Below are positions 11,435-28,839 of a stretch of 38,546 nucleotides of DNA, piece after piece (position 1 is the first letter of the stretch; each line of letters begins with the position of its first letter). The notes under the pieces were generated by a model. That model was not told the DNA's origin and made no database searches. It worked only from the letters and a program-made list of their open reading frames with translations. The position numbers and the translations under genes are program-made. Source of the stretch: Anaerolinea sp. (GTDB taxonomy: Bacteria > Chloroflexota > Anaerolineae > SpSt-313); NCBI GenBank assembly GCA_020725765.1, contig DYEI01000162.1, forward strand, positions 1 through 38,546. The letters are read 5' to 3'.

Positions 11435-11438
11435 TGCC

Positions 11439-14400
11439 ATGCAGGATTGCCTGGAGAGGCCCCAGGTCGAAAGCGGGGGGCAGGGCGTGCTCGCACGGCT
11501 GCGGGCGTATGTGGGCACCCAGCAGTTCGTCAGGCTGGCGCTCGTGGCCATCCTGCTCCTTGGGGCGTCGATGCGCCTCACGGGCGTCAACTGGGATGAA
11601 GGGACCCATCTGCACCCGGATGAGCGTTTCCTGACCGATGTCACGAGCCGGCTGGGTTGGCCAAAGAGTCTGGCCGAGTACTTTGACGAGGCGCGCTCGC
11701 CGCTGAACCCATACAACCGCGATGTGGGCATGTTCGTCTATGGGACGGCGCCCATCTTTCTGGTCAAGGGCCTCGGGTTGCTCCTGAACAAGAGCTCCTA
11801 CTGGGAGGTCCACCTGGTCGGACGGGTTGTATCGGCCGGCTATGACCTGCTGGTCATCGTTCTGGTGTTTCTCATCGGCCGGCGGCTGTATGGGCGGTGG
11901 ATCGGGCTCTTGGGCGCTTTCCTCATGGCGTGCACCGTTCTGAACATCCAGCACTCGCACTTTTACACCGTGGAGAACTATATCACGCTGATGGTGACGC
12001 TGGCGTTCCTCTTTGCAGTGCGCGTCATGCAGGGCGGTGGTTGGGGGGACTGGGCACTCCTGGGGGCGAGCTTTGGCCTCGCTGTGGCCGGCAAGATCAA
12101 TATGGCCATGTTCGCCCTTGTCATCGCGGCGGCGTGCCTGGTGCGGGCGTTGAGCGAGCCGCTGCCGGAGACCTGGAACGCCGGTGTGCGGGTGCTTTGG
12201 CGGCGGAATCTTGGACCGCTGTCGCTACTCATGCAGGTCAACGGGCGCGACGACCGGGCAGGCCGCGTCGTGGCCCTGCAGCGCGGCATCTTGCGTGCCG
12301 GGGCGGGGCTTGCGCTGACCCTGCTCATCGCACTCGTGGCCTTTCGCGTGGCTCAGCCCTACGCCTTCAGTGGCCCAAGCCCCTTCAGCCTGGAGCTTTC
12401 CCCGCGCTGGCTGGAGGACATGAGGCGGGCCGCGGCCATGATGAACGGCACAATCGACATGCCGCCGAGCCATCAGTGGACCGACCGCGAGCCGGTGTGG
12501 TATGCGCTGCGCAACATCGTGCTGTGGGGCATGGGGCTGCCTCTCGGGCTGGCGGCCTGGCTCGGCTGGGCGGTGGCGGGGGTCGAGCTCTGGCGGAGGC
12601 GCAAGGTCGAGCATCTGCTGCCCCTGGTGTGGGTGACCTTCCCATTCCTGTATCTGAGCATCCAGTTCGTCAAGTCGATCCGCTATTTCCTGCCCTTCTA
12701 CCCGGTGCTGGTGCTCCTTGGGGCATACTTCATCTTCTGGCTGTGGCGACAGGCGCGGCGCATTGCGGGGGCCGCGGGCCCGGCCTGGACGCGGATGCTC
12801 GCCCGCCGGGCGCCCGCGGGGGCGATGGTTGTGGCAGGTGTGATCGTGCTGGGCACCTTCCTGTATGCCGAGGCCTTTACCAACATCTACCGTCGGCCCC
12901 TCACCCGGGTCGCTGCCTCACGCTGGGTCTATGAGAACATTCCCCCGGGCGCCACGATCACCTTCGAGCACTGGGACGACCCCATCCCCCAGAACGTCGA
13001 CGGGCGGGACGCCGGCCGGTACTACAACATGCTGGGTACAGACCCCTACTGGGAGGACACGCCCGAAAAGCGGGACGCCCTCTACAGCTGGCTGGACCAG
13101 GCAGACTATATCGTCCTCTCCAGCAACCGGGTCTATGAATCGATCCCGCGCCTGCCTGAGCGCTTTCCGCTGACGACCGCCTACTACCGGTACCTTTTCT
13201 CGGGTGATCTCGGGTTCCGCATCCTGAGGGTGTTCACCTCGTACCCCAACCTCGGCCCCATCGAGCTTGTGGACGACCGGGCCGACGAGACGTTCACCGT
13301 CTACGATCACCCCAAGGTCATCATCTTTGAGAAGACGGCTGCCTACTCCAGCGCGCGGGTGCGGGAGCTCTTGGGCGACATCCCGGTCGACCGGGTGATC
13401 CGACTGAGCCCGGTCCAGACGATGCGTTCCCGGCACCTTCTCCTCCTGCGGCAGGCGGAGCTGGAGGCACAGCGTGCCGGTGGGACGTGGTCGGCGATGT
13501 TCAACCGGATGGACCTGGCCAATCGGCTGCCCGTGCTGGCGTGGCTGGCTGTGACCGAACTGCTGGGGTTGATTGCGCTGCCGATTGCCTATCACGCCTT
13601 CCCGCGCCTGCGGGACCGGGGGTTCATCTTCGCCAAGGGGCTGGGGATACTGCTCGTCTCGTACCTCGCGTGGCTGGCGGCGAGCTTGCACCTTCTCCCG
13701 TACACGAGGCTGGCCATCGTTGCTCAGGTGCTGCTGGTGCTCCTCGTGGCCCTCTGGCTGGCGAGGCGGCGGTGGAGTGAGATGTGGGCCTACCTGCGCC
13801 GGGAGTGGCGCATGCTGCTCCTTGAGGAGGGGCTCTACCTGGCGTTCTTTGGGGCCTTCCTCCTCGTCCGCATGGGGAACCCGGACCTCTGGCACCCGGC
13901 GAGGGGCGGCGAGAAGCCGATGGACCTGGCCTATCTGAATGCCATCATCAAGAGCACGTGGTTCCCGCCCTATGACCCCTGGTATGCTGGTGGCTACATC
14001 AACTATTACTACTTTGGGCACGTGCTGGTTGCGACCCTGATCAAGCTCTCGGGCATCGTTCCGACGACGGCGTACAACCTGGTGCTGCCGACGCTCTTCG
14101 CACTGACCGCCATGGGGGCCTACGCAGTAGTGGCCGGGCTCGTTGGACAGGCGGGAGGCGGCGGTGATGAACCGACCCGGACGTTGGACCGCGCGGCGCG
14201 GTTCGGCCTCTTTGGGGCGCTTCTTGTTACGGTGCTGGGGAACCTGGGGCAGGTGCGACTGCTGACGCAGGCCTTTCAGGCGGCGAGTCAGCTCGAGTTC
14301 CGCAGCACCCTGCCGGGCCTCGCCGGGCTGGTCAGGACGCTGGACGGGCTGTTGCGGGTGCTGGCCGGGCGGCCGCTGGGAACCAACCCGGACTGGTGGT

Positions 14401-17400
14401 TCTGGAACGCGAGCCGCGTGATGGGTGCCGGGGAGATCAACGAGTTCCCCTACTTCACCTTCCTCTACGCCGACTTGCATGCGCATCTCATCGCGCTCCC
14501 CTTTGGGCTGCTGGCTCTCGGCCTGACCGTGAGCCTGCTCAACCAGTGTGTGGGCGCAGCCCGGGCGGCAGCGCGCTCCCCTGAGGAACCGGCCGGACAG
14601 GGCTCGCCCGCTGATATGATGCTGACCAAGGCAGGGCCGACGGCGGCAGTGGGCTTGCCAGGACGTCTGAAGCAATGGGCAGCTACCGTGCAGTGGACCG
14701 AGTGGCTCGGGCTCACGCTGCTGGCGCTCGTCCTGGGCGAGCTGAGGGTGAACAACACCTGGGACTATCCGACGTACCTGCTTGTGGCGGCGGGCGGGAT
14801 GGTCATCGCCCGGATGCATGGGAGGCGGGGCCCCTGGTGGGCTGAGGTCTGGCCGGTGCTGAAGCGGCTCCTCTTCCTGGCGCTCGCCAGTACGGTGCTG
14901 TTTCAGCCCTTCCATGCCCGGTACGGCGCGGCGTATACGTCGGTGGAGCTATGGCGTGGCACGCGCACCCCGCTGGGTGACTATGTGGTGATCCACGGGG
15001 TCTTTCTCTTCATCCTGCTCATCTACGCGCTGAACCGCGCCTTTGGGTACCAGGCACGGGGGGCGTTGGCGCGGAGCGTGCGGCTGACCCTGGGTCAGCC
15101 GCTAAGGATCGGCCGCTACATGCGGCTGGCCGACCGTCTGGTGCAGCCGGGAGCGGCGTATCAGGTGGGATGGCTTGGGATCATGGCTCTCGCCGCATTC
15201 TCGGCGGCGTCGGTGATGGTGCACTGGTGGCTCGTGGGGCTGGCTCTGCCGCTGCTCGTCGTGGGGATGAGCCTGTCGCTGCGGCGGGACCTGCCTGCGG
15301 CGGAGCAATTCGCCGCGATGCTCTTCAGCCTTGGGCTTGTGCTGACCGCAGCGGTCGAGGTCGTGGTGCTGCGCGGCGATATCGGCCGAATGAACACCGT
15401 GTTCAAGCTCTACCTGCAGGTGTGGGTGCTGTGGGGGGTGGCAGCGGCCGTCGCGCTCTCAGCGCTCAGCAGGCGATGGGCAAGGTGGCGCCCGGCATGG
15501 CGGGAGTCCTGCCAGCTCGGCCTTGGGCTCCTCCTTCTCGGAGCAGCACTGTACCCCCTCACGGCGACTGGCGCCAAGATCAATGACCGGTTCGACAGGA
15601 GCCTGGGTCCGGGTCTCGATGGCACCGCCTACATGCAGACAGCCCAGTACTACGATCAGGACCGGCTGTTGGAGCTCCGCCACGACCTCGAGGCCATCCG
15701 CTGGCTGCAGGACAATGTGCGGGGGTCCCCGGTCATTCTCGAGGCTCAGACGCCGCTCTACCGGTGGGGGTCGCGCATCTCGATTTACACCGGTCTGCCG
15801 ACCGTCATCGGCTGGGACTGGCACCAGATGCAGCAGCGTGCGGTGGTGCCGGGCGAGGCGATTCTCTGGCGGCTGGATGACGTCCGTCGCATGTACGACA
15901 CGATCGACGGGGATGAGCTCATCCGGCTCCTCAGGCTCTACGACGTGTCGTACGTCTATGTCGGCGAGCTGGAGCAGGCGTACTACAGCCCGGAGGGTCT
16001 CGCCAAGTTTGAGCGGCTGGCGGGCAGCCTGTTCGACGTCGTGTACCGGCGGGGCCCGGTCACCATCTATCAGGTGCGGCGGGAGCAGCTTGGAGGGCTC
16101 GCCACGCGCCCTTTTCTGCTGCCGCAAGCCGGGGGGAGCGGCAAGGCGCTCCTGCTCTCCGAGCCGGTTGATCAGTTGCCCGTCGTTGCGGACCGTGGCT
16201 GGAACCCCCTGGCCAACGCCGGGCCGGCTGCGGCTGTGCTCATCTGGTGGCTTGCCGTCTGCCTGCTGGGCTGGGCGGCGTGGCCTCTCCTCATGGGTGT
16301 GTGCCGGGGCCTGCCGGATCGCGGGTATCTCCTGGCCAAGGGGGCTGGCTGGCTGATTGTGGGGTACCTGCTGTGGCTGGGCGCCTCGACCCGGGCCCTG
16401 GCCAACCGGGTGCCGTACGCGTACGCAATCCTTGGGCTTCTCGTGGTGGCGGGAGTCTGGGTTGCGAGGCGGCAGCGTCGACGACTCGGCGCCCTGTGGC
16501 GCGCACGGCGATGGCTCCTTCTGCGGGAGGAGTTCCTCTTCTCCGGGGCGTTCCTGGCCCTCGTTCTCGTGCGCCTGGGTAACCCGGACCTCTGGCAGCC
16601 GTGGTTTGGCGGCGAGAAGATGATGGAGTTCGCGTATCTGAACGCCATCCTCAAGAGCGCCCACTTTCCGCCCTACGACCCCTACTTTGCGGGCGGCTAC
16701 ATCAACTACTACTACTATGGCCTGTACCTGGTCAACGTGCTGATCAAGCTCACCGGCATCGTGCCGGAGGTCGCCTTCAACCTGGCCGTGCCGACCTTTT
16801 TCGCGCTCACGGTCGCCATGGCCTTCTCGCTAGGCCATGCCCTCACCTGGCGGCGAAAGGGTCGGCAGTGGCTGTGGAGTGGCGTGGCTGCGGCCGTGGG
16901 GACGGCGCTACTGGCCAACCTCACGGTGCTGGCGCAGTGGGTGGGGGGGCTGGTCTGGCTGGGAGGCGGCCCGACGGAGGGGGCGCCGGGCCTCGAGGCG
17001 ATGCAGCCGCTGCTCGCGGGGCTTGCGCGATGGCTGAGCGGACAGGGGAACCTGCCAGCCTTCGACTACTGGTGGGAGGCCACGCGGATCATCCCCAACA
17101 CTATCAACGAGTTCCCCTTCTTCTCGTTTCTCTTTGCCGACCTGCACCCCCACATGATGGGCATGCCCTTCGCCCTGGGGCTGCTGGTGGCGCTCGTGGC
17201 GCTGGTGGCCCCCGGGGCTGGCTGTGGTCGGCTCGCCACGCAGCGCAGATCAGATCCCAAGGGCTGGGGCACCGTGGGACCCCTCCGAGGAAAGTGGCCG
17301 CTTGCACTGCTCGCCCTCATCGGCGGGGCGCTTGGCCCGCTGAACACCTGGGACTTGCCGACCTATCTGGGGTTGGCGGTGGTGGTGCTGGTGTGGGTGG

Positions 17401-18713
17401 GCATCGAGAGGCGCGTGGGGTGGCGGGCGTGCGTGCAGGCGATGGCCCTCGTGGCCCTGGCGGGCGCGCTGTACGCGCCCTTCTACGCCCACTATGCAGC
17501 CCCGTCAGCGTCGCCCCGGTTTGAGCCGGCGCAGACCCGTGCCCGGTACTTCCTGGTAGTGTGGGGGCTGTGGCTGGTGGCGGCGTATGGGTGGCTCGTG
17601 CCACGGTGGTGGCGCGGGAGGGATGGCGCAGGGCGAGTGTGGCGGCTGGCCTTGGGCCCGAAGGCGGCCCGGTCGCGGGCGCTGATGCGGGCACTGGGTG
17701 GCGGGGGGCTTGCGGCGGCGAGGCTCCATGTGGCACTTGCCGGCGCGGTGCTTGCGCTCACAACGCTGGCCCTCACGATCGGCGAGGCACCGATTGCACT
17801 GCTCATTGCGCCGGTGGTGCTTGGCCTTGCGCTGTGGCTGCGGCGGCGGGCTTCCATGGAAGAGCGGCTGGGTGGGCTGTTGATGGCGGCGGGGTGTGTG
17901 GTGCTGGCCGGCACCGAACTGGCCTTCCTGGCCGATTTCCTTCAGGGTGGCGAGTGGGAGCGCATGAACACCGTCTTCAAGTTCGGCATACAGGCCTGGC
18001 TGCTCCTCGCTGTGGGCCTGAGTGCCGGCCTGCCGGAGGTGCTCGACTGGGTGCGGCGGCGCGGATTCCTGCCCGGGGCCTGGGCGGTCGCCATGGTGGC
18101 GCTGGTGGCGATCAGCCTCGCCTATGTGCCGTTGGGGGTCGCGGCGCGGGTGCACGAGCGCTTTCCCGGCGGGCCTCCGCCGACGGGTACTCTGGACGGG
18201 CTGGCCTACATGCGGACCGGCGTGTACCGGTGGCCCGATGAGGAGCACCCGATCGTCCTGCGCCACGACTATGAGGCCATCGGGTGGCTCCTGGCCAACG
18301 TTCGTGGCACGCCGGTCATCGCTGAGGCTCCCCTCGGCTACTATCGCGAGGGCGGCATGCGCGTGTCCTCGTACACGGGGCTGCCGACGCTGGTCGGGGC
18401 GCACCAGTCGGAGCAGCGACCGGCCGAAGTGGTATCCGAGCGTGCCTCACAGGCCGATGCGCTCTACCGGATGGGTGACCCCGGGGCGACTCTGGCGCTG
18501 ATGCGGCAGCTCCGGGTGCAGTACGTATACTTTGGGCAGCTGGAGGAGGTGGTCTACGGGGCGGCCTCTCGGGCCAAGTTCGACGAGCTGGTGCACCGCG
18601 GCGAGTTGGAGGTGGCCTATGAGAATGAGGGGGTCAGAATCTATCGGGTTGTAGGCGTCGGGGCGAATCGGGCCAGGTGCTGCCCTTCGGGCTGCCCTGC
18701 GCCGACGGCGTGA
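11439..18713 (+). CDS. Giant tri-modular membrane protein: GT39-like module plus two DUF2298 (Chlor_Arch_YYY) modules
   Basis: Membrane protein of 2424 residues. Module 1 (about 1-665) is GT39-like, with LHPDER (Asp61-Glu62) and a soluble segment ending YDHPKVIIFEK. Modules 2 (about 665-1570) and 3 (about 1575-2424) are tandem DUF2298/YYY units. Each has NPDLW, a GGEK-x-M-acidic loop (Glu825 and Glu1726), PPYDP then AGGYINYYY (YYYFG 856-860; YYYYG 1757-1761), a conserved NEFP(Y/F)F region followed by LHAHL or LHPHM, RMNTVFK (from 1317 and 2175), and a soluble tail with RHD.EAI..L..NVRG and YTGLPT. From memory, TIGR03662 describes single-copy members and a two-copy class with an extra N-terminal region and TPR repeats; here no TPR is seen. 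Start ATG 11439 has GGAGAGAG at 11423-11430; ATG 11421 is an alternative. Function is unproven; extracytoplasmic glycosyl transfer is inferred. Confidence 0.88.
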   Translation: MQDCLERPQVESGGQGVLARLRAYVGTQQFVRLALVAILLLGASMRLTGVNWDEGTHLHPDERFLTDVTSRLGWPKSLAEYFDEARSPLNPYNRDVGMFVYGTAPIFLVKGLGLLLNKSSYWEVHLVGRVVSAGYDLLVIVLVFLIGRRLYGRWIGLLGAFLMACTVLNIQHSHFYTVENYITLMVTLAFLFAVRVMQGGGWGDWALLGASFGLAVAGKINMAMFALVIAAACLVRALSEPLPETWNAGVRVLWRRNLGPLSLLMQVNGRDDRAGRVVALQRGILRAGAGLALTLLIALVAFRVAQPYAFSGPSPFSLELSPRWLEDMRRAAAMMNGTIDMPPSHQWTDREPVWYALRNIVLWGMGLPLGLAAWLGWAVAGVELWRRRKVEHLLPLVWVTFPFLYLSIQFVKSIRYFLPFYPVLVLLGAYFIFWLWRQARRIAGAAGPAWTRMLARRAPAGAMVVAGVIVLGTFLYAEAFTNIYRRPLTRVAASRWVYENIPPGATITFEHWDDPIPQNVDGRDAGRYYNMLGTDPYWEDTPEKRDALYSWLDQADYIVLSSNRVYESIPRLPERFPLTTAYYRYLFSGDLGFRILRVFTSYPNLGPIELVDDRADETFTVYDHPKVIIFEKTAAYSSARVRELLGDIPVDRVIRLSPVQTMRSRHLLLLRQAELEAQRAGGTWSAMFNRMDLANRLPVLAWLAVTELLGLIALPIAYHAFPRLRDRGFIFAKGLGILLVSYLAWLAASLHLLPYTRLAIVAQVLLVLLVALWLARRRWSEMWAYLRREWRMLLLEEGLYLAFFGAFLLVRMGNPDLWHPARGGEKPMDLAYLNAIIKSTWFPPYDPWYAGGYINYYYFGHVLVATLIKLSGIVPTTAYNLVLPTLFALTAMGAYAVVAGLVGQAGGGGDEPTRTLDRAARFGLFGALLVTVLGNLGQVRLLTQAFQAASQLEFRSTLPGLAGLVRTLDGLLRVLAGRPLGTNPDWWFWNASRVMGAGEINEFPYFTFLYADLHAHLIALPFGLLALGLTVSLLNQCVGAARAAARSPEEPAGQGSPADMMLTKAGPTAAVGLPGRLKQWAATVQWTEWLGLTLLALVLGELRVNNTWDYPTYLLVAAGGMVIARMHGRRGPWWAEVWPVLKRLLFLALASTVLFQPFHARYGAAYTSVELWRGTRTPLGDYVVIHGVFLFILLIYALNRAFGYQARGALARSVRLTLGQPLRIGRYMRLADRLVQPGAAYQVGWLGIMALAAFSAASVMVHWWLVGLALPLLVVGMSLSLRRDLPAAEQFAAMLFSLGLVLTAAVEVVVLRGDIGRMNTVFKLYLQVWVLWGVAAAVALSALSRRWARWRPAWRESCQLGLGLLLLGAALYPLTATGAKINDRFDRSLGPGLDGTAYMQTAQYYDQDRLLELRHDLEAIRWLQDNVRGSPVILEAQTPLYRWGSRISIYTGLPTVIGWDWHQMQQRAVVPGEAILWRLDDVRRMYDTIDGDELIRLLRLYDVSYVYVGELEQAYYSPEGLAKFERLAGSLFDVVYRRGPVTIYQVRREQLGGLATRPFLLPQAGGSGKALLLSEPVDQLPVVADRGWNPLANAGPAAAVLIWWLAVCLLGWAAWPLLMGVCRGLPDRGYLLAKGAGWLIVGYLLWLGASTRALANRVPYAYAILGLLVVAGVWVARRQRRRLGALWRARRWLLLREEFLFSGAFLALVLVRLGNPDLWQPWFGGEKMMEFAYLNAILKSAHFPPYDPYFAGGYINYYYYGLYLVNVLIKLTGIVPEVAFNLAVPTFFALTVAMAFSLGHALTWRRKGRQWLWSGVAAAVGTALLANLTVLAQWVGGLVWLGGGPTEGAPGLEAMQPLLAGLARWLSGQGNLPAFDYWWEATRIIPNTINEFPFFSFLFADLHPHMMGMPFALGLLVALVALVAPGAGCGRLATQRRSDPKGWGTVGPLRGKWPLALLALIGGALGPLNTWDLPTYLGLAVVVLVWVGIERRVGWRACVQAMALVALAGALYAPFYAHYAAPSASPRFEPAQTRARYFLVVWGLWLVAAYGWLVPRWWRGRDGAGRVWRLALGPKAARSRALMRALGGGGLAAARLHVALAGAVLALTTLALTIGEAPIALLIAPVVLGLALWLRRRASMEERLGGLLMAAGCVVLAGTELAFLADFLQGGEWERMNTVFKFGIQAWLLLAVGLSAGLPEVLDWVRRRGFLPGAWAVAMVALVAISLAYVPLGVAARVHERFPGGPPPTGTLDGLAYMRTGVYRWPDEEHPIVLRHDYEAIGWLLANVRGTPVIAEAPLGYYREGGMRVSSYTGLPTLVGAHQSEQRPAEVVSERASQADALYRMGDPGATLALMRQLRVQYVYFGQLEEVVYGAASRAKFDELVHRGELEVAYENEGVRIYRVVGVGANRARCCPSGCPAPTA

Positions 18714-18889: not shown

Positions 18890-20656
18890 ATGCTCAAGCT
18901 GACAGACAAGAGCCAGGCCGGCCAGGGAAGGGCGCCCGACTGGCCGGCATTGACGCTTGAGAGCCTGATCTGCGCCGTGCTGCTCGGCAGCGCGGCCTTT
19001 ATTCGCTTCTATGCCTTGGGTCGCTGGCCGCTCCTTGAGTCGGAGGCGGGTCAGGCCCTGGCTGCCTGGCGGTTCCTGCATGGCGGCGCGCCATCACCGG
19101 CAGCCGTGCCTCTCTTGTTTGACTCTGCTCTTCTTGGCTTCTTCCTCTTTGGTGCAGGCGACGCAGCAGCGCGGCTATTGCCCGCGATCCTGGGTACGGC
19201 TCTGGTGCTCCTGCCCCTCGGACTCCGGCGGCGCCTCGGTACGTGGGGGGCCCTGGCCGCGACCTTGATGCTGGCCTTCTCGCCGACGCTTGTGTTCTAC
19301 TCGCGCACGCTGGCAGGAGCCGTCCCGGGGCTGGCCGGGCTGGGGGCGATTCTCCTCGCCATTGAGTACGCCGGGCGCGGGCGCGATAGGATGGCGAGGG
19401 TCCTGGGGATGGGGGGCCTGGCGGTTGCCCTGACGTCGACCCCCTGGGCCTATTCGGCACTCCTGGCGGGGCTGGTGCTCTATGGCCTCGGCGTGGTCGC
19501 CAGGCGCCGGGGCGACCGGTGGGCCGACTGGAGCGCGCTAACGGCAAGAACGGCCTCGCTCCTCGGCGAGCGCAAGCTCTGGCTGGGTGTTGGCCTCGTA
19601 GTGGTGTTGCTGTCGACTGCCCTGCTCATGCGCCTCGGCGGCTTGCAGGCGACGGCAGATCTTCTGGCCGTCTGGGCTGCGCGCCTGCTCCCTGGCTCTG
19701 GCGGGAGGGCCTTCGGTTACCCATTGGCCATCCTTCTCTTCTACGAGACGGGCACCCTTGCGCTGGGTGTGGCGGGCGTGATTATCGGGCTGCGGCGCCG
19801 AAGCCTGTGGGCGGCCTTTCTCGGCCTCTGGGGGGGGCTGGTGCTCGTGCAGGCGACCCTCTCGGGGGCGCAGGATGGCGAGCTGGTGGCGCAGGCGGTC
19901 GTTCCGCTGGCGCTGCTTGGCGGGGTGGCCGTCGAGGACCTGGTCGAACGCCTGCGCCCCGCGCAGCCGGTGTGGGTGGGCGGGTCGCTGGCTGTGCTGT
20001 CGGTCCTGGTGGGTTTCTGGTGGCTGCAACTCGCGTCCTTCTTCAACCCGGAGGCGGTGGCGCTGCTTGGCAGCTATCTGCAGGCGGTGTGGTTCCTCTG
20101 CCTGGCGACGCCGGTGGTCATTGCAGCGGCGGGTGCGGTGCTCTGGCGCTGGGTCGGCCGCTCGGAGACCCTCTGGGCGGTGGCCCTCCTGGGATTGGGT
20201 CTCGCAGGGTGCCTGCTCGTACGCAACAGCATCAGCCTCAATCACGTCTTTGCCCGCGACCCACGCGAGCCCCTGGTGGTCTCGCCGACTTCGGTTGACG
20301 TGCGGGATATGGTTGCCTTCCTTGAGACCTGGTCTGTGCGGACGGCACTGGACCAGCACGCCCTGAGTATCGCTGTGGGTCCGGACCTGGAGCCTCTGGT
20401 GCCCTGGTACCTGCGCGATTTCGGCGCGCTGCGCCTCTCTGCTGCGCCACAGGACATGGCGGCAGCCGATGCACTGGTGACGGCGGGCGTGGTCGAAGGG
20501 TCGAGCACGGTGGGCTACGCTTCGACGACCTACCGTCTGCGCAACGTCTGTGACGCACCGTTGGCGGACGCGTACAGTGCTTTTGGGTGGTGGCTGCTGC
20601 GAGTGGGAGGCGGGGCCGTGCGGCCCGAGACCTGCCGGCTCTGGGTCAGACCCTGA
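18890..20656 (+). CDS. GT-C-like polytopic membrane protein with non-canonical acidic loop
   Basis: Membrane protein of 588 residues. The N-terminus resembles the GT39/TIGR03663 pattern: one helix (FIRFYALGRWPLLESEAGQA), then a short external loop. The usual Asp-Glu pair is replaced by Ser51-Glu52. It then has GGAPSPAAVPLLFD, and a DAAARLLPAILGTALVLLPLGLR segment that aligns by eye with the second and third helices of the neighbouring TIGR03663-type protein (GRLSAALFSIGSVILILYLR). About ten further hydrophobic segments run to residue 450, and a soluble tail of about 140 residues ends the protein. ATG 18890 is the only sensible start; GGAG at 18871-18874 is rather far upstream. It stops 16 nt before the TIGR03663-type gene, so the two are probably made together and may form a complex, with this one a divergent or inactive partner. 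Confidence 0.7.
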   Translation: MLKLTDKSQAGQGRAPDWPALTLESLICAVLLGSAAFIRFYALGRWPLLESEAGQALAAWRFLHGGAPSPAAVPLLFDSALLGFFLFGAGDAAARLLPAILGTALVLLPLGLRRRLGTWGALAATLMLAFSPTLVFYSRTLAGAVPGLAGLGAILLAIEYAGRGRDRMARVLGMGGLAVALTSTPWAYSALLAGLVLYGLGVVARRRGDRWADWSALTARTASLLGERKLWLGVGLVVVLLSTALLMRLGGLQATADLLAVWAARLLPGSGGRAFGYPLAILLFYETGTLALGVAGVIIGLRRRSLWAAFLGLWGGLVLVQATLSGAQDGELVAQAVVPLALLGGVAVEDLVERLRPAQPVWVGGSLAVLSVLVGFWWLQLASFFNPEAVALLGSYLQAVWFLCLATPVVIAAAGAVLWRWVGRSETLWAVALLGLGLAGCLLVRNSISLNHVFARDPREPLVVSPTSVDVRDMVAFLETWSVRTALDQHALSIAVGPDLEPLVPWYLRDFGALRLSAAPQDMAAADALVTAGVVEGSSTVGYASTTYRLRNVCDAPLADAYSAFGWWLLRVGGGAVRPETCRLWVRP

Positions 20657-20672
20657 AGGAGACAGGTTCGGC

Positions 20673-23600
20673 ATGCAAGACGTCGCTCCCGAGTCGCGGA
20701 AAGACTCGTTCCTGAGGCGGCCCATCTCGACCTGGCTGCGTCTCGACGGTTGGATGCTGGTCGCAGCGCTCATCGTGCTGGCGGCCGTTGTGACGCGGCT
20801 CTGGGACCTGGGGGCGCGCTCCTACAACCATGACGAATCGATCCACGCCTGGGAATCGTGGAAGCTGTATACCGGGCAGGGCTATATTCACAACCCGATC
20901 TACCATGGCCCTTTCCTGTACCATGTCACGGCCTTTATCTACTTCCTGTTCGGGGATAGCGACTACACCGGGCGCCTGTCGGCGGCGCTCTTTAGCATCG
21001 GGAGCGTCATCCTCATCCTGTACCTCCGGCCATGGCTGGGGAGGAAAGGGAGCCTGGTGGCAGCGGCGCTTGCTGTGATCTCCCCCGCTCTGCTCTACTA
21101 CGGCCGCTTTATCCGGCACGACGTCTACTCGGTGTTCTTCACCCTGCTCATGCTCCTCGGAATTCTCAACTATCTCGAGAAGCGCGAGGACCGGTATCTC
21201 TACCTGACCGTGCTGGGGCAGGCGCTTTACTTCTCGAACATGGAGACGGCGTTCATCCAGACGTTCGTCTTCTGGACCTTCCTTGCGGTGCTGTTCCTGG
21301 CGCGGTGGCTGCCGAATCGTTCGCGCTCGTGGCGCGAGTTTCCCGAGTTCGACTTGCTGATCGTGATGGGGGCCCTGGTGCTGCCGCTGGCCTCTCCGCT
21401 GGGGATCAAGCTCGCGGGCACAGTGCTCAAGGATGCACGGTTTGACCCGATCGCCTATGAGAGCGTCGACAGCATCATCCGCTCGGCGATCATCTGGGGG
21501 CTGTGCTTCCTGGGGTCAATGGTGGTGGGGCTGTGGTGGGACCGGCGACGGTGGCTGGTCTCGGCGGGCCTGTACTATGCCATCTACATCGTGCTCTTTA
21601 CGACCTTTTTCACCAATGGGCGAGGCATTGCCACCGGGCAGGTTGGGTCATTGGGGTACTGGCTGTCTCAGCAGACGGTGCGGCGTGGCCAACAGCCGTG
21701 GTTCTACTACCTGATACTCCTGCCGATGTACGAGTACCTGCCACTCACTTTCGGGGTGCTGGGCGGGGCCTACTATCTGCTGCGGCGGCGCCCGGTGCCT
21801 GTGCTTGAGGGCGGATCGGAGAGGGCCGCGGAGCGAGTTGCCCCCTTTGTGCCTCTGGTCATGTTCTGGGCGGTGGGGAACCTCGCCATCTTTAGCTGGG
21901 GCGGCGAAAAGATGCCCTGGCTGCTCGTGCACCTGACGCTGCCTCTCGTCCTGCTCACCGCATGGTTCACGAATCGGCTGCTGGATGCCGATTGGCGGGA
22001 GCTGTGGCAGCGGGGCGCCGGGTGGGTGGCGTTGCTCCTGCCGCTGGCCGTGGTGGCCCTCGCCGGGACGCTCTCCTCGCGGCCTTTCACCGGCACGTCG
22101 ACCGCCAGCCTAAACGCGACCATGGCGTGGCTGGCGGCGTTCGCCCTGCTCCTGATTGTGGGCTACCCCCTGACCCAGTTCGTGGCACAGCTCGGCTGGC
22201 GAGACAGCGCGCGGGTTGCTCTGCTGGTGGCCTTTGTGGTGCTCGGGACCTTTACCGTGCACCACGCGTTCATGGCCGTGTACAAGTATGGGGACGTCGC
22301 GGTCGAGACTCTGACCTACGCCCAGGCCTCGCCCGACGAGCCGATGGTGATGCGCGAGCTCGAATCCATGTCCCGCCGGCTGACGAGCGAGAGGGACCTG
22401 AAGGTGGCCTACGACGATGAGTCGAGCTGGCCCTTTGTGTGGTACTTCCGCAACTGGCCGAACGCCCGGTACTTTGGCAAGGCACCCAGCGGTCCGCTCG
22501 ATGCGGCCGTGGTCATCGTGGGCCCGGGCAATGAGGCGGCGGTCAAGCCGTTCCTGGGCAATGCCTATTACCGGCGGCAGTACCGGCTCATCTGGTGGCC
22601 GCTGGAGGACTACAAGTCGCTCACCCCTCAAAAGCTCTGGCAGTACGTGGTAGACCCGGCGAAGCGCAAGAGCCTGTGGGACATCCTCATGTACCGCAAG
22701 TACGACACCCCGCTCGCGGGCTGGCCGCTGGTACACAACTTTATCATGTATGTGCGGAAAGACATCGCCGCCCAGGTCTGGGACTATGGCCCGGAGGTTG
22801 GGGCCGCCCAGTCCGAGCCGGTGGAAGATCCGTACATCGCCCGCTACCGGTCGCTCACGGCTGCGGCGAGCCTTGGCGGTCCGGCTGAGCTGGCGGATCC
22901 GAAGGGGATGGCCGTTGGTCCCGATGGGCGGCTGTTCGTCGCCGATGGCAAGGGGAGTCGCATCGCGGTCTACGCCAATGGGCAGCTTGTAGCCCAGTGG
23001 GGGAGCCAGGGGTCCGGGCCGGGGCAGTTCAACGAGCCCTGGGGGGTCGCGGTTGGGCCGGATGGGGCGGTCTATGTGGCCGATACCTGGAACCATCGCA
23101 TCCAAAAGCTGGATGGCGAGGGCCGCTTTGTGTCCTCGTGGGGCACCTTTGGCGATACGCAAGGGCGGGCCAGCGGCGAGTCAGACCTGTTCTACGGCCC
23201 TCGCGATGTGGCCGTCGACGCGGAGGGCAATGTCTGGGTGACGGACACAGGCAACAAGCGGGTGTGCAAGTTTGACCCCAATGGCCGGCCGCTTGCGCAG
23301 TATGGCGGCGCGGGCGTGGGCGAGGGGCAGTTCCTCGAGCCGGTTGGCATCGCCATCGATGGCGAGGGCAACATCTATATAGCAGACACGTGGAACCGAC
23401 GCATCCAGGTCTTTGACCGTAACTTTACATATCTGCGCCAGTGGTCGGTGATGGGGTGGGAGGGCCAGTCGGTGGTGAACAAGCCCTTCCTCGCCGTTGA
23501 CAGCGGCGGCAATGTCTACGCCACCGACCCGGAGGCGCACCGGGTGATCAAGTTCTCCAAGAGCGGGGAAGTGCTGGCCGTCTGGGGCAGGCGTGGCATG

Positions 23601-23711
23601 GACATGGGCTCCTTTGAGTTGCCGACCGGTGTGACCGTGGACGCGCAGGGGCGCGTGCTCGTCTCAGACAGTGGCAACGGGCGCGTGCTCCTGTTCGGAC
23701 CTGTCCTCTAG
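20673..23711 (+). CDS. TIGR03663-type membrane protein fused to a six-repeat NHL beta-propeller
   Basis: Protein of 1012 residues. The N-terminal half (about 1-530) is polytopic and carries the TIGR03663 hallmarks near the start: NHDESIHAW (Asp54-Glu55) and YHGP (His78-Gly79-Pro80), related to GT39 transferases. A soluble stretch (about 540-735) follows. Residues about 741-1012 hold six NHL-like repeats, each with (G/A)-(V/I)-A-(V/I)-x-x-x-G, then (V/I)-x-(V/A)-(A/T)-D-(T/S)-x-N-x-R-(I/V) and a W or Y-G turn, consistent with one closed six-bladed propeller, presumably outside the cell. TIGR03663 members are often encoded near TIGR03662 members, as here. Start ATG 20673 has AAGGAG at 20656-20661; a longer open frame to 20550 overlaps the previous gene and is not used. 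The propeller probably binds protein or glycan; inferred. Confidence 0.88.
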   Translation: MQDVAPESRKDSFLRRPISTWLRLDGWMLVAALIVLAAVVTRLWDLGARSYNHDESIHAWESWKLYTGQGYIHNPIYHGPFLYHVTAFIYFLFGDSDYTGRLSAALFSIGSVILILYLRPWLGRKGSLVAAALAVISPALLYYGRFIRHDVYSVFFTLLMLLGILNYLEKREDRYLYLTVLGQALYFSNMETAFIQTFVFWTFLAVLFLARWLPNRSRSWREFPEFDLLIVMGALVLPLASPLGIKLAGTVLKDARFDPIAYESVDSIIRSAIIWGLCFLGSMVVGLWWDRRRWLVSAGLYYAIYIVLFTTFFTNGRGIATGQVGSLGYWLSQQTVRRGQQPWFYYLILLPMYEYLPLTFGVLGGAYYLLRRRPVPVLEGGSERAAERVAPFVPLVMFWAVGNLAIFSWGGEKMPWLLVHLTLPLVLLTAWFTNRLLDADWRELWQRGAGWVALLLPLAVVALAGTLSSRPFTGTSTASLNATMAWLAAFALLLIVGYPLTQFVAQLGWRDSARVALLVAFVVLGTFTVHHAFMAVYKYGDVAVETLTYAQASPDEPMVMRELESMSRRLTSERDLKVAYDDESSWPFVWYFRNWPNARYFGKAPSGPLDAAVVIVGPGNEAAVKPFLGNAYYRRQYRLIWWPLEDYKSLTPQKLWQYVVDPAKRKSLWDILMYRKYDTPLAGWPLVHNFIMYVRKDIAAQVWDYGPEVGAAQSEPVEDPYIARYRSLTAAASLGGPAELADPKGMAVGPDGRLFVADGKGSRIAVYANGQLVAQWGSQGSGPGQFNEPWGVAVGPDGAVYVADTWNHRIQKLDGEGRFVSSWGTFGDTQGRASGESDLFYGPRDVAVDAEGNVWVTDTGNKRVCKFDPNGRPLAQYGGAGVGEGQFLEPVGIAIDGEGNIYIADTWNRRIQVFDRNFTYLRQWSVMGWEGQSVVNKPFLAVDSGGNVYATDPEAHRVIKFSKSGEVLAVWGRRGMDMGSFELPTGVTVDAQGRVLVSDSGNGRVLLFGPVL

Positions 23712-23816: not shown

Positions 23817-24959
23817 GTGAAGCTGCACGAGTTCCAGTCCAAGGCGATCCTCGCGCGCTATGGCATCCCCATACCCCGAGGTGAGGTGACGGACACGCCC
23901 GCGGAAGCAGCCGGCATCGCGGAGCGCCTGGGCGGGCGCGTGGCGGTGAAGGCGCAGGTGCTCGTCGGTGGAAGGGGCAAAGCCGGTGGCATCCGCCTCG
24001 CCGCGTCGCCTCGGGAGGCGGCGGAAGCTGCCGCGGCCATCCTCGGCATGACCATCCGCGGGCTGCCCGTCGGCAGGGTGCTGGTTGAGGAGGCCGCAGA
24101 GGTAGAGCGCGAGCTCTACCTCGGGCTCACGGTAGACCGCGCCATAGGACGGGTCAGGGCGATGGCCTCCGCGGAGGGTGGGGTGGACATCGAGGAGGTG
24201 GCCCACGCCCGGCCGGACCGGATCGGTAGCGTTGCCATCGACCCCTTTCTGGGATTCCGCGACTACCACGCCCGCTATCTTGCCTCCTTCCTCGGCCTGC
24301 CCGCTTCCCTCTGGGTACCCTTCTCTGGCATCGCCCAGGGCCTCAGCGCGGCCTTTGCCGAGAGCGACGCCTCGCTGGCCGAGATCAACCCCCTCGTCGT
24401 CACCCGCGACGGCACGCTCCTGGCGCTCGACGCCAAGATAAACCTGGACGACAACGCCCTCCCCCGGCAACCGGAGCTGGCGGCCCTGCGCAACGCCGAT
24501 GAGGAGTCTCCTGCCGAGGCCCGGGCCCGGCTGGCAGGGCTGAGCTATGTGCCTCTGGAGGGGACCATCGGCTGCATGGTGAATGGAGCCGGGCTGGCCA
24601 TGGCCACGCTGGATGCGGTGAAGGCGCTGGGTGGCATGCCTGCCAACTTTTTGGATGTGGGTGGCGGTGCCCGGGCTGAGCGGATACAGACCGCCCTGGA
24701 CCTCATCCTCAGCGATCCCAGGGTGCGGGCCGTGCTGATCAACATCTTTGGGGGCATCACCCGGTGCGATGAGGTCGCCCGCGGTGTGGCGGAGGCGTTT
24801 TCCGGGCGGTCCCCGGGGGTGCCGGTGGTCGTGCGGCTGGTGGGAACGAACGAGGCGGAAGCACGGGATATTCTCGGGCAACTCGAGGGAGTCCGCGTGC
24901 AGCGCTCGCTGGAGGAGGCTGCGCGGCTGGCGGTGAGCCTCGCGGGCGTTGGCGTGTGA
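23817..24959 (+). CDS. sucC: Succinyl-CoA synthetase (ADP-forming) beta subunit
   Basis: Cytoplasmic ATP-grasp subunit of 380 residues. With SucD it converts succinyl-CoA, ADP or GDP and phosphate to succinate, CoA and ATP or GTP, reversibly. It starts [20 protein letters not shown], the family N-terminus. The ATP-grasp nucleotide region has [16 protein letters not shown] (about 44-59), and EINPLVV and [11 protein letters not shown] supply the metal-binding region. The C-terminal CoA-ligase domain includes [25 protein letters not shown] and [16 protein letters not shown]. The length agrees with E. coli SucC (388). It initiates at GTG 23817 behind AAGGGGG at 23804-23810. sucD follows after 57 nt. 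The neighbouring 2-oxoglutarate:ferredoxin oxidoreductase supplies or uses its succinyl-CoA. Confidence 0.96.
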
Positions 24960-24973
24960 CCCTGGGGGTGGCA

Positions 24974-24989
24974 GCCGGCTGATGCCGGC
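24974..24989. other. Short hairpin in the sucC-sucD gap
   Basis: GCCGGC-TGAT-GCCGGC forms a 6-bp stem with a 4-base loop between sucC and sucD. There is no T-run. It may tune relative expression or stabilise the intergenic mRNA; chance is possible. Confidence 0.35.
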
Positions 24990-25016
24990 GGGGTGTCTTC
25001 TCGAGGGGGAGAGGCC

Positions 25017-25907
25017 ATGGCCATACTGGTGGATCACCATACGCGGCTTGTCGTTCAGGGCATCACGGGGCGCGAGGGGACGTTCCATACCCAGCAGATG
25101 CTGGCGTACGGCACGCAGGTGGTGGCCGGGGTGACGCCGGGGAAGGGCGGGCAGCAGGTGCATGGCGTGCCCGTCTTTGACACAGTGCGGCAGGCAGTAG
25201 CCGAAACGGGTGCGAACGCCTCGATCATCTTCGTCCCGGCCCGCGGCGCAGCGGATGCGATCCTCGAGGCGGCCGATGCAGAGGTCGCGCTCGTCGTCTG
25301 CATCTCCGAGGGAGTGCCAACGCTGGACATGGTGCGCGTGCGCCGCGCGCTCCGCGGATCCGGGACGCGCCTCGTGGGCCCCAACTGCCCTGGGGTCATC
25401 ACTCCGGGCGTGGCCAAGGTGGGGATCATGCCCGGACACATCCACGTGCCGGGGCCGGTGGGGGTGGTGTCTCGCAGCGGGACTCTGACCTACGAGGTCG
25501 TGTATGCCTTGACGCAGGCGGGAATCGGCCAGTCGACCTGCGTGGGCATCGGCGGTGACCCGGTGCTCGGCACTGGCTTTGTCGACGTCCTGGAGCTATT
25601 CGAGGACGATCCGCAGACCGAGGTGGTCGTGCTGATCGGTGAGATCGGTGGGTCGGACGAGGAGCGGGCTGCGACGTTCATCCATAGCCGGATGCGCAAG
25701 CCGGTCGTGGCCTTTGTGGCGGGGCGGTCCGCGCCGGCGGGAAAGCGGATGGGCCATGCGGGGGCGATCATCGACGGAGGGGCGGGCACGGCCGAGGGAA
25801 AGATGGAAGCGCTGCGTGCGGCCGGTGTGGCCGTGGCCGAGATGCTGGGAGAGATCCCGGGGCTGGTCAGAGAGCGGCTGGGCCAGCCGGGTGGGCCGAA
25901 CTCTTGA
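25017..25907 (+). CDS. sucD: Succinyl-CoA synthetase alpha subunit
   Basis: Cytoplasmic subunit of 296 residues that carries the phosphohistidine intermediate and the CoA site. The N-terminal CoA-binding domain starts with [20 protein letters not shown] and has [15 protein letters not shown]. The second domain contains GPNCPG and [14 protein letters not shown]. The active-site His247 lies in [12 protein letters not shown]. Start ATG 25017 has GAGGGGGAGAGG at 25003-25014. An upstream GTG at 24993 would add eight residues with no family match. The stop codon TGA (25905-25907) lies inside the -35 element of the next promoter. Confidence 0.96.
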
Positions 25908-25932
25908 CAGTACGCCTGCTTTGGCCTAATAT
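25904..25932 (+). promoter_or_regulatory. Promoter of the 2-oxoacid:ferredoxin oxidoreductase operon, overlapping the sucD stop
   Basis: A perfect TTGACA (25904-25909) is followed after 17 bp by TAATAT (25927-25932, 4 of 6). The sucD stop codon is the TGA within TTGACA. Transcription should start near 25939, leaving a leader of about 65 nt before the korD ATG. Confidence 0.65.
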
Positions 25933-26004
25933 GTCGCCTGGGCCTGCCAGGAGGGGCCGATCGGAGCGGTCTGGTGTCGAGACAGGGAGGTCGCGACAAC
26001 GGCG

Positions 26005-26301
26005 ATGGCAGATGCAACGGAGACGCCCCCCGCGGCAGATGCGACCCCGGAAGGGCAGTCGAAGCCGCGTCAATCGCGGCGAGGCGAAGTGCGTGTATTC
26101 GGCCAGTGGTGCAAGGGCTGCGGTCTGTGTATCGCCTTCTGTCCCCGGAATGTCTTTGCGGCCGGCAGTGATGGCCATCCCCTTGCCGTCTACCCCGAGC
26201 GCTGCACAGCCTGCATGTGGTGCGTAGAGCACTGCCCCGATTTCGCCATCGTTGTTCATGTGATGGATTCCGGGTCGCCGTCGCGGAGGGACGAGGCATG
26301 A
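26005..26301 (+). CDS. korD: 2-oxoglutarate:ferredoxin oxidoreductase delta subunit (2x[4Fe-4S] ferredoxin)
   Basis: Small iron-sulfur protein of 98 residues. Two CxxCxxCxxxCP clusters are intact: Cys36-39-42-46 and Cys67-70-73-77, binding two [4Fe-4S] clusters that pass electrons from the thiamine site to free ferredoxin. The first 30 residues are an Ala/Pro/Gln-rich tail, longer than needed for the fold. ATG 26005 has GGGAGG at 25985-25990, a rather long spacing. The stop overlaps the alpha-subunit start (ATGA). The order delta-alpha-beta-gamma and sizes match the four-subunit archaeal-type KOR. The 2-oxoglutarate specificity is inferred from the adjacent sucCD. Confidence 0.9.
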   Translation: MADATETPPAADATPEGQSKPRQSRRGEVRVFGQWCKGCGLCIAFCPRNVFAAGSDGHPLAVYPERCTACMWCVEHCPDFAIVVHVMDSGSPSRRDEA

Positions 26302-27413
26302 GCGTTCGTCTCATGCAGGGGAATCTGGCGTGTGCGGAGGCGGCGCTGGCTGCGGGGTGTCGCTTCTATGCGGGGTATCCCATAACCCCGTCTTCAGAGA
26401 TCGCAGAGCACCTCTCGCGGCGTCTGCCGGAGCTGGGTGGGGTATGCATCCAGATGGAGGACGAGATCGCCTCCATCGCAGCCGTCATCGGCGCCTCGGT
26501 CGGCGGGCTGAAGGCGATGACGGCCACAAGCGGCCCCGGCTTTTCGCTGATGCAGGAAAACATCGGCTATGCGGCGATGGCCGAGATTCCCTGTGTGGTC
26601 GTTGACGTGCAGCGGACCGGCCCGAGCACCGGTCTGCCGACCTCCCCGAGCCAGGGGGACATGATGCAGGCCCGGTGGGGCACCCACGGTGACCATCCCA
26701 TCATTGCCCTCTCGCCCTCGTCGGTGCGGGAGGCGTTCGACCTCACCGTCAAGGCCTTTGCCTTCTCCGAGCTCTACCGCACTCCGGTGCTCCTGATGAT
26801 GGACGAGGTCGTCGGGCACATGCGGGAAGCCATCGAGCTGCCGGCGCAGGTCGAGGTTGTGGAGCGGCCCCATACCGATGTGCCGCCGGAGTGGTACTAC
26901 CCCTACGAGGCGGGGGGCGCGGATGTGCCTCCGCTCGTGCCCTTCGGGATGGGGTTTCGCTACCACATCACGGGGCTTTTCCACGATCGGGCCGGCTTCC
27001 CGACGGAGCGCATCGATGAGATCGACCCCTGGCTGAAGCGAGTCAATGCCAAGATCGAGCGGAACCTCGGCCGAATTCTGATGTACGCCCTGGATGGCGT
27101 GGAGGGGGCGCGCACTCTGGTCGTGGCGTATGGGGCAACCGCACGCTCGGCCAGGCATGCCGTCGGCATGGCGCGGGCCCGGCGGCACAAGGTGGGCTTT
27201 GTCAAGCTGCTGACCGTCTGGCCCTTTCCGGTGGAGGTGCTGGCCGAGGCGGCGCAGGGCGTGAGGACGGTCGTGGTGCCGGAGATGAACCTGGGGCAGA
27301 TCGCGCTCGAGGTCGAACGGGTTGTGGGCCGCGGCAGGGTGCGGCGGGTCAACCGGGCGGACGGGCAGATGATCACCCCGGCCGAGATCCTGGCAGCAAT
27401 CGAGGAGCACTGA
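26298..27413 (+). CDS. korA: 2-oxoglutarate:ferredoxin oxidoreductase alpha subunit
   Basis: Cytoplasmic subunit of 371 residues containing the pyrimidine-side thiamine diphosphate domain. Family landmarks are GYPITPSSE (26-34), QMEDEIASIAA, TATSGPGFSLMQE, and QRTGPSTGLPT. Conserved PVLLMMDEVVGHMRE follows. The C-terminal domain II has TLVVAYGATARSAR and VGFVKLLTVWPFP. With the beta, gamma and delta subunits it oxidatively decarboxylates 2-oxoglutarate plus CoA to succinyl-CoA, reducing ferredoxin, or runs in reverse. Its ATG overlaps the korD stop by 4 nt. Separate alpha and gamma subunits indicate the four-subunit form. Specificity for another 2-oxoacid cannot be excluded from sequence alone. 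Confidence 0.93.
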   Translation: MSVRLMQGNLACAEAALAAGCRFYAGYPITPSSEIAEHLSRRLPELGGVCIQMEDEIASIAAVIGASVGGLKAMTATSGPGFSLMQENIGYAAMAEIPCVVVDVQRTGPSTGLPTSPSQGDMMQARWGTHGDHPIIALSPSSVREAFDLTVKAFAFSELYRTPVLLMMDEVVGHMREAIELPAQVEVVERPHTDVPPEWYYPYEAGGADVPPLVPFGMGFRYHITGLFHDRAGFPTERIDEIDPWLKRVNAKIERNLGRILMYALDGVEGARTLVVAYGATARSARHAVGMARARRHKVGFVKLLTVWPFPVEVLAEAAQGVRTVVVPEMNLGQIALEVERVVGRGRVRRVNRADGQMITPAEILAAIEEH

Positions 27414-27416
27414 GCA

Positions 27417-28277
27417 ATGAAGCTCGAGCGGCTGGACCCGTACGCCTACCTCAGACCCAAGAAAAAGTTCCCGCCCGTCTGGTGCGCGGGGTGCGGCATC
27501 GGCATCGTCCTTGGAGCCATCATCCGGGCCATCGACAGGACGGGATGGAGCCGCGACGACATCGCCATGATCTCCGGGATTGGTTGCAGCGGGCGCATGC
27601 CGGTGTACGTGGACCTGAACACCATGCACACCACGCACGGGCGCGCCCTCGCCTTCGCAACCGGCCTCAAGCTGGCGCGCCCGGAGATGCACGTGATTGT
27701 GGTCATGGGCGACGGCGACGCGCTGGCCATCGGCGGGAACCACTTTATCCATGCGGCGCGGCGCAACATCGGGCTGACGGCCATCGTCATCAACAACTCG
27801 ATCTATGGCATGACGGGCGGACAGTACTCGCCGACGACGCCGGAGAATGCCCTGGCAACGACGGCACCGCTGGGTCACATCGAGCCCCCGTTTCGAATCG
27901 ATGCGCTGGCCGAGGCAGCTGGAGCGACGTTCGTGGCCCGCAGCACGGTGTACCACACCCGCGAGTTGGATCGCCTCATCGAGATGGCTCTGAAGAAGAA
28001 GGGCTTTGCCGTGGTTGAGGCCGTGAGCTACTGCCACACGACCTTTGGCCGCCTCAACAGGCTCGGCAGCCCGGTAGAGATGATGCAGCAGCTCAAGGAC
28101 AACTCGATCCCTGTAGAGCGTGCGCGGGAGCTTCCGCCCGAAGCGCGGGAGGGCAAGATCGTTCGCGGCGTGCTTGTGGACCGCGACATCCCCGAGTACA
28201 CCGAGCGCTACAGGAGGCTGATCGAGGTGGCGCAGTCTCAGGCGCTGCGCGGAGGGGCGCATGGTGGGGCGCATTGA
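27417..28277 (+). CDS. korB: 2-oxoglutarate:ferredoxin oxidoreductase beta subunit
   Basis: Cytoplasmic subunit of 286 residues that holds the thiamine diphosphate cofactor and active site. It has WCAGCGIG (Cys23 and Cys26), SGIGCSGR (Cys57), and the thiamine-Mg motif GDGDALAIGGNHF (from 98) ending in INNSIYGMTGGQ. The GQ-x-SPTTP loop is family-typical. Length is equal to characterised archaeal KorB. The start lies three nt after the korA stop. Its 3' end overlaps the gamma start by 17 nt, indicating coupled translation. Succinyl-CoA made here is the substrate of the SucCD synthetase encoded just upstream. Confidence 0.94.
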   Translation: MKLERLDPYAYLRPKKKFPPVWCAGCGIGIVLGAIIRAIDRTGWSRDDIAMISGIGCSGRMPVYVDLNTMHTTHGRALAFATGLKLARPEMHVIVVMGDGDALAIGGNHFIHAARRNIGLTAIVINNSIYGMTGGQYSPTTPENALATTAPLGHIEPPFRIDALAEAAGATFVARSTVYHTRELDRLIEMALKKKGFAVVEAVSYCHTTFGRLNRLGSPVEMMQQLKDNSIPVERARELPPEAREGKIVRGVLVDRDIPEYTERYRRLIEVAQSQALRGGAHGGAH

Positions 28278-28839
28278 GGTTCGGCTGGCGGGCGAAGGGG
28301 GTCAGGGCCTGATCCTCGCTGGCGTGATCCTGGCCGAAGCGGCGGCCGTGCACGACGGACTGCACGCGACTCAGACACAGTCATATGGGCCCGAGGCGCG
28401 GGGCGGCGCCAGCAAGTCCGAAGTCGTGATCAGCGATGAGGAGATCGACTATCCCAAGGTCATCGAGGCCGATTACCTGCTGGCGATGAGCCAGGAAGCC
28501 TGCGACCGGTATGTGGGAAACCTGCGGCGCGATGGGCTCCTCATCGTGGACTCGACGCATGTGACGCGCCTGCCTCTCGATCGGCAGGCGGTGCAGGCGC
28601 CGATCACCCGCCTGGCCGAAGAGGCAACGGGACGGCGCATCACGGCCAACGTGGTTGCCCTGGGGGTGCTGGTCGGGCTTACGGGGGTCGTGTCCCGTCA
28701 GGCAATAGAGAAGGCTGTGCGCGAGCGGGCGCCCAAGGGGACGGAGGACCTGAACCTCAGGGCCCTTGCCGCCGGGCTCGACTGGGCAGAACAGCGCCGC
28801 CGGCCGGCAGCCTCACCGGGGGGTGCTGCAAGCCGATGA
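28261..28839 (+). CDS. korC: 2-oxoglutarate:ferredoxin oxidoreductase gamma subunit
   Basis: Cytoplasmic subunit of 192 residues, the gamma domain that binds CoA and helps assemble the complex. The family signature GEGGQG lies at 11-16 (RLAGEGGQGLILAG). Next come QTQSYGPEARGGASKSEVVIS, YPKVIEADYLLAMSQEA and a NVVALG..VGL region. It begins inside the korB 3' end with GGAGGGGC just upstream. Its stop overlaps the Nudix gene start as ATGA. Specificity follows the argument given for the alpha subunit. Confidence 0.93.
   Translation: MVGRIEVRLAGEGGQGLILAGVILAEAAAVHDGLHATQTQSYGPEARGGASKSEVVISDEEIDYPKVIEADYLLAMSQEACDRYVGNLRRDGLLIVDSTHVTRLPLDRQAVQAPITRLAEEATGRRITANVVALGVLVGLTGVVSRQAIEKAVRERAPKGTEDLNLRALAAGLDWAEQRRRPAASPGGAASR

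Follow-up and report, generated by a model that had tools for sequence, protein, structure and literature searches.

A membrane protein of the GT-C type belonging to the TIGR03663 family and an NHL propeller are fused in a single protein of 1012 amino acids, encoded at positions 20673-23711 (+ strand) of the window analysed in this work, a stretch of 38,546 nucleotides from Anaerolinea sp. The reading favoured here, to which a probability of about 0.5 is assigned, is that the fusion is an extracytoplasmic GT-C transferase whose propeller would hold a conserved glycan or protein partner, and that an inactive paralogue encoded immediately upstream would cooperate with it. The fusion itself, the conservation of its catalytic set, the conserved propeller face and the gene neighbourhood have been observed directly in the sequences. 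Each of the parts is known and the protein is present in many public genomes; the combination, the conserved face and the probably inactive partner are undescribed in the open-access papers searched, in which no description of a TIGR03663-NHL fusion was found.

Domain organization of the fusion protein

The reading frame of the fusion is uninterrupted from the ATG at 20673 to 23711. The NCBIfam profile TIGR03663 matched residues 30-595 (20760-22457, + strand, also delimited by alignment) with 241.6 bits and an E-value of 1.7e-71, above the cut-off of 126.25, and the Pfam NHL profile matched the C-terminal part with 161.3 bits (1.1e-48, cut-off 20). The TIGR03663 family is described by DE, HGP and two invariant arginines near the N-terminus, and alignments located these hallmarks in the fusion at residues 54-55 (DE), 78-80 (HGP), Arg 145 and Arg 148. 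The motif HDE (residues 53-55) and the HGP are contained in the first extracytoplasmic loop (20829-20912, + strand), as derived from alignments and topology assignment. A mixed alpha/beta C-terminal domain follows the last membrane helix at about residues 540-705 (22290-22787, + strand), according to the secondary structure of the AlphaFold2 model and to the whole-length ArnT alignment of the paralogue, and the six-bladed propeller occupies residues 732-1012 (22866-23708, + strand; Pfam NHL, AlphaFold2 and fold matches). A preliminary description of this DNA had proposed a TIGR03663-type protein with the DE and HGP hallmarks, followed after about 660 residues by NHL repeats, and this organization agrees with the profile scores, the hallmark positions and a propeller onset near residue 732, about 650 residues past HGP. 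The D-(T/S)-x-N-x-R turns that it regarded as conserved are present in four of the six blades (2, 3, 4 and 6), with DGKGSR in blade 1 and DPEAHR in blade 5 at the corresponding turns. A scan of the window's own genome, which is 97.6% complete, revealed five single NHL blades over the cut-off, every one inside the fusion ORF, and no further significant NHL match.

Among the fused proteins with letters at these positions (five truncated rows were gapped there), HGP was kept in 58 of 58 and DE in 57 of 58. The unfused TIGR03663 members keep the identical catalytic set in the alignment, so the propeller would be dispensable for the core reaction in some members.

Distribution of the fusion in Chloroflexota

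The best 80 of 572 relatives, chosen by similarity, were used as named loci; all of them are from Chloroflexota, unplaced, or a Sphaerobacter record. These best 80 loci comprised 62 fused and 14 unfused copies and 4 cut by a contig end. Fused records were assigned to Anaerolineae, Ardenticatenaceae, Caldilineaceae, Thermoflexales and unspecified Chloroflexota, and unfused records mainly to Dehalococcoidia, SAR202 and unspecified Chloroflexota. A search for the fusion in other genomes, suggested in the preliminary description, has been carried out in an evenly drawn sample of 400 Chloroflexota genomes with a completeness of 80% or more. A single frame spanning both parts was found in at least 124 of them, including 50 of the 58 genomes of the window's class; six of the other eight showed propeller-side matches beginning later in long frames. 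The fusion, earlier presented as unfamiliar from the family description, is class-wide and not unique. An artefact or chance fusion is ruled out by the fused frame in at least 124 of the 400 genomes and in 62 of the 80 named loci.

The tree of 76 membrane domains required five changes between the fused and unfused states, three of them forced by well-supported branches; the fusion is therefore old, with a small number of losses or gains. No plasmid-borne relative was matched among 72,556 plasmid records. A separate propeller that could serve the unfused enzymes was not found either, there being no NHL ORF in the flanking DNA retrieved for the 14 unfused named loci. Some irregular copies were recorded: the fused frame of locus L054 (9896-13294) contains one in-frame TAA (10433-10435), indicating that this copy is broken or misassembled; a fusion frame in another genome (G412, C11:48650-51973) has one in-frame TAG; and in L061 (2433-7193) two further partial TIGR03663 ORFs come after the fused copy, suggesting a tandem duplication with a break.

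A conserved face of the propeller

In any propeller the b-c and d-a loops lie on one face. In the 48-row alignment of fused proteins, this face had a mean conservation of 0.70 and the opposite one of 0.50 (p 4e-4); on the latter, only glycines occupied positions with conservation of 0.9 or higher. Six residues, W806, N807, R809, W907, W929 and K937, were invariant in all 61 fused propellers, and W790 was present in 60 of 61. These residues were compared with 22 NHL ORFs from the same loci unmatched by the membrane-domain search, a set in which alignment shifts between repeats are possible and in which one short ORF (L068) is perhaps a fragment of another fused copy. W790 and K937 were each found once in this set and R809 and W929 three times each; W806, N807 and W907 were not among the commonest letters, the only ones compared for these three positions. 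A pattern of this kind would be expected from a fixed ligand or partner, and the propeller face likely has one; the acceptor protein or growing glycan proposed in the preliminary description may be among the candidates, but the face itself speaks only for some such ligand. The aromatic residues fit a glycan without proving it, and the ligand could also be a protein.

A degenerate paralogue upstream of the fusion

The ORF at 18890-20656 (+ strand), ending 16 bases upstream of the fusion start, encodes a paralogue of 588 amino acids without the catalytic residues, as revealed by profile score, alignments and model. It scored 90.9 bits against TIGR03663, below the cut-off of 126.25, and is not filed as a member of the family. 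In the alignment, the paralogue of the window lacks the Asp of DE, the His and Gly of HGP and the second of the two Arg residues. Over 47 paralogues, Asp54 and His78 were each kept in five sequences, Asp150 and Gln341 in three, and Gly79 and Glu191 in one, while Glu55 and Pro80 stayed in 45 and Arg145 in 46; because of this loss of catalytic residues, the paralogue is probably a conserved but inactive relative. Neither this degenerate neighbour nor the flippase reading attached to the family name was mentioned in the preliminary description.

The association of both genes was evaluated in informative loci, defined as those in which the paralogue was seen or the upstream flank reached 2.5 kb or more (14 loci with short flanks and 4 cut by a contig end were excluded). 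The paralogue accompanied the fusion in 47 of the 50 informative fused named loci and the unfused enzyme in one of 12. In the 400-genome sample, at least 62 fused genomes had a separate paralogue ORF, adjacent in 35 and not adjacent in 27, and the non-adjacent pairs suggest retention without close linkage. This joint retention is in line with a different explanation, in which the propeller would be a pure assembly scaffold, its conserved face binding never the substrate but a member of the cluster such as the inactive paralogue or a YYY protein; NHL domains are common protein-binding platforms. However, the paralogue also occurs with an unfused enzyme (L108), three fused loci (L066, L106 and L113) have no nearby paralogue, and seven genomes outside the window's class (G126, G182, G190, G316, G365, G370 and G395), among the matches listed, have a paralogue ORF but no fused row, all of which argues that the propeller is not tied to the paralogue alone. 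Five of these seven are among the genomes listed with the membrane domain only. A pure scaffold is considered somewhat unlikely, although scaffolding as such is a close rival that may be combined with either a transferase or a flippase function. A strict tie between fusion and paralogue was discarded because of the same four loci and seven genomes. Three independent contrasts between fusion and paralogue were available on the tree, two in the same direction, none in the other and one with no difference, which is not significant.

Predicted structure and topology

The fold and topology of the fusion described here are those of predictions. The AlphaFold2 model, built from an alignment of 48 fused proteins of the window and the named loci, had a mean pLDDT of 89.6 and a pTM of 0.72. 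Six blades were predicted in the propeller, and the strand 732-735, located ahead of blade 1, completes blade 6; completion of the last blade by a strand from before blade 1 is the usual way of closing a propeller ring. The closed six-bladed fold of the model is in accordance with the six closing repeats proposed earlier from the sequence. The best match among solved propellers was the NHL domain of Thin (6xg7), with Z 42.2 over 275 residues and rmsd 2.5 (VIA-align), and the NHL domain of TRIM71 and the extracellular domain of PknD gave Z 40.4 and 30.3, respectively. The extracellular NHL domain of the kinase PknD may act as a sensor of envelope signals, and the resemblance to it could mean that the propeller of the fusion reads such a signal and switches the enzyme. 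This sensor function is highly improbable, since the likeness to PknD is common to all NHL propellers in the match list and no signalling part was found in the fusion protein by Pfam and NCBIfam profile matches.

Propellers took up the list of structure matches of the whole fusion model, and for this reason the homologous upstream paralogue was modelled to analyse the membrane domain. No meaningful match was obtained when fusion residues 1-709 were compared with PDB sequences (best E 0.86). The paralogue model, obtained from 31 sequences with pLDDT 90.7, matched ArnT with Z 24.7 over 441 residues (rmsd 4.6, spanning residues 22-588) and AglB and STT3 with Z of about 20-22, the sequence identity to ArnT/STT3/AglB-type structures being about 10-15%. 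A GT-C fold for the fusion's own membrane domain is thus supported indirectly, through the model of its homologue.

Fifteen candidate membrane helices were assigned from model helices and hydropathy, an assignment whose parity could be flipped by a miscounted helix. Lys and Arg were more frequent in even loops (19 in 90 residues) than in odd loops (11 in 125), a bias that fits an inner N-terminus. In this predicted topology, 15 of the 17 catalytic-set residues lie in odd (outer) loops and the remaining two border odd loops, and both the C-terminal domain and the propeller are assigned to the odd side. The alignment and the predicted topology also place the acidic residues in the first outer loop, with the active site outside. 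The predicted topology agrees with the published GT-C model, in which the number of helices is odd and the C-terminus outside in most enzymes (PMC6801728). The active site and the propeller are probably located on the same, extracytoplasmic side. This is consistent with the extracellular propeller proposed in the preliminary description, and the cytosolic C-terminus named there as the contrary outcome did not appear in the prediction.

These positions also bear on a flippase or scramblase function like that of Agl23 from H. hispanica, by which a lipid-linked sugar or oligosaccharide would be moved across the membrane and the propeller would receive the glycan or dock the next enzyme. The NCBIfam name of TIGR03663 is 'flippase activity-associated protein Agl23', and the work on HhAgl23 supports such a function, reporting that the purified protein translocated M5GN2-PP-phytanol in liposomes without ATP and that it rescued rft1-deleted yeast (PMC11182771). 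However, the invariant acidic, His, Arg and Glu residues of the fusion cluster in outer loops as in transferases, and simple flipping should need none of them; the paralogue keeps the fold without that constraint on catalytic residues. The retention of transferase residues in the fusion versus their loss in the paralogue is left unexplained by the Agl23 experiments, and a flippase is regarded as an unlikely alternative to the transferase.

Gene neighbourhood and related clusters

TIGR03663 genes are found near TIGR03662 genes, and this proximity, invoked earlier for the present sequence, was also found in the window, where a TIGR03662/DUF2298 ('YYY') protein of 2430 amino acids, PMT_2-like in its N-terminal part and containing two YYY domains, is encoded at 11421-18713 (+ strand; profile match of 1079 bits). 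YYY matches were located near the fusion in most named loci with sufficient flank. In L039, the PMT_2-like and YYY parts of this protein are split into two overlapping ORFs of 1556 and 901 amino acids. A run of PMT_2-type GT-C genes, a GT4 glycosyltransferase and a methyltransferase are also present upstream of the fusion. Downstream, the genes at 23817-28839 resemble, with their translations judged by eye, those for succinyl-CoA synthetase subunits and for a set of 2-oxoacid:ferredoxin oxidoreductase proteins; they are probably unrelated to the glycan cluster.

In the clusters of relatives, further GT-C proteins carry PA14 and NHL ends in five of the six scanned (L045 13072-16737, L050 15794-19426, L067 8586-12020, L076 15306-19664 and L082 17381-21259). 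The addition of propellers to outer glycan enzymes is therefore a habit of these genomes, and the presence of PA14 and NHL on other GT-C proteins fits a glycan-facing side. The protein of L076 (15306-19664) has in addition a zinc ribbon at its start. Caldilineaceae also encode NHL propeller proteins of 445-486 amino acids, such as that of L076 at 19628-21085, with a zinc ribbon ahead of the propeller, and similar ones in L084, L086 and L090.

Proposed function

In the favoured transferase mechanism, the TIGR03663 enzyme would take a sugar from a putative polyprenyl-phosphate donor and hand it to an acceptor, presumably at the outer face of the membrane. The NHL propeller, on the same side, would serve as a carbohydrate-binding or docking module, and its invariant Trp/Asn/Arg/Lys face would bind a single conserved glycan or partner close to the active site. 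The upstream inactive paralogue and the YYY proteins would be the likely partners, perhaps with a live/dead GT-C pair formed by both TIGR03663-related proteins. A broader proposal, possible but tentative, is that the surface glycans of Chloroflexota are built by an undescribed extracytoplasmic machine that includes a live GT-C enzyme with a substrate-reading propeller, a dedicated inactive GT-C paralogue and YYY proteins, in which the propeller face would set the choice of acceptor or the chain length.

The TIGR03663 family joins transferase-like catalytic residues with the flippase activity reported for its namesake Agl23, and the invariant propeller face together with a naturally inactive paralogue offers a direct way to separate both functions. 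The substrate or partner would be identified by what the propeller binds, and comparison of the live/dead pair would test which residues serve catalysis. The fusion is also an entry point to the little-known surface glycans of Chloroflexota.

Comparison with known systems

The membrane domain of the fusion resembles the TIGR03663/Agl23 family in its score of 241.6 bits and in the DE, HGP and conserved Arg residues, whereas the family model, with 435 positions, stops before the propeller and the fusion has an extra C-terminal domain and six NHL blades. The likeness to GT-C transferases whose C-terminal domains are extracytoplasmic (ArnT and STT3/AglB/PglB) lies in the fold of the paralogue model (Z 24.7 with ArnT and 22 with A. 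fulgidus AglB) and in the same predicted topology. The C-terminal domain of ArnT is periplasmic, and to our knowledge none of these enzymes has an NHL propeller. The six-bladed NHL fold is common to the fusion propeller and those of Thin, TRIM71 and extracellular PknD (Z 42.2, 40.4 and 30.3), but these have other partners, their ligands including RNA and protein, and are not joined to a comparable membrane enzyme. In the mycobacterial AftB-FecB-MMAR_1667 complex, the GT-C enzyme AftB is supported in trans by the propeller protein MMAR_1667, for which a role like that of a carbohydrate-binding module has been proposed (PMC12802301). That system consists of separate proteins, with an eight-bladed WD40-type propeller and a GT-C enzyme of another branch, unlike the fusion; nevertheless, it combines, like the fusion, a GT-C transferase with an extracytoplasmic propeller and is the nearest working precedent.
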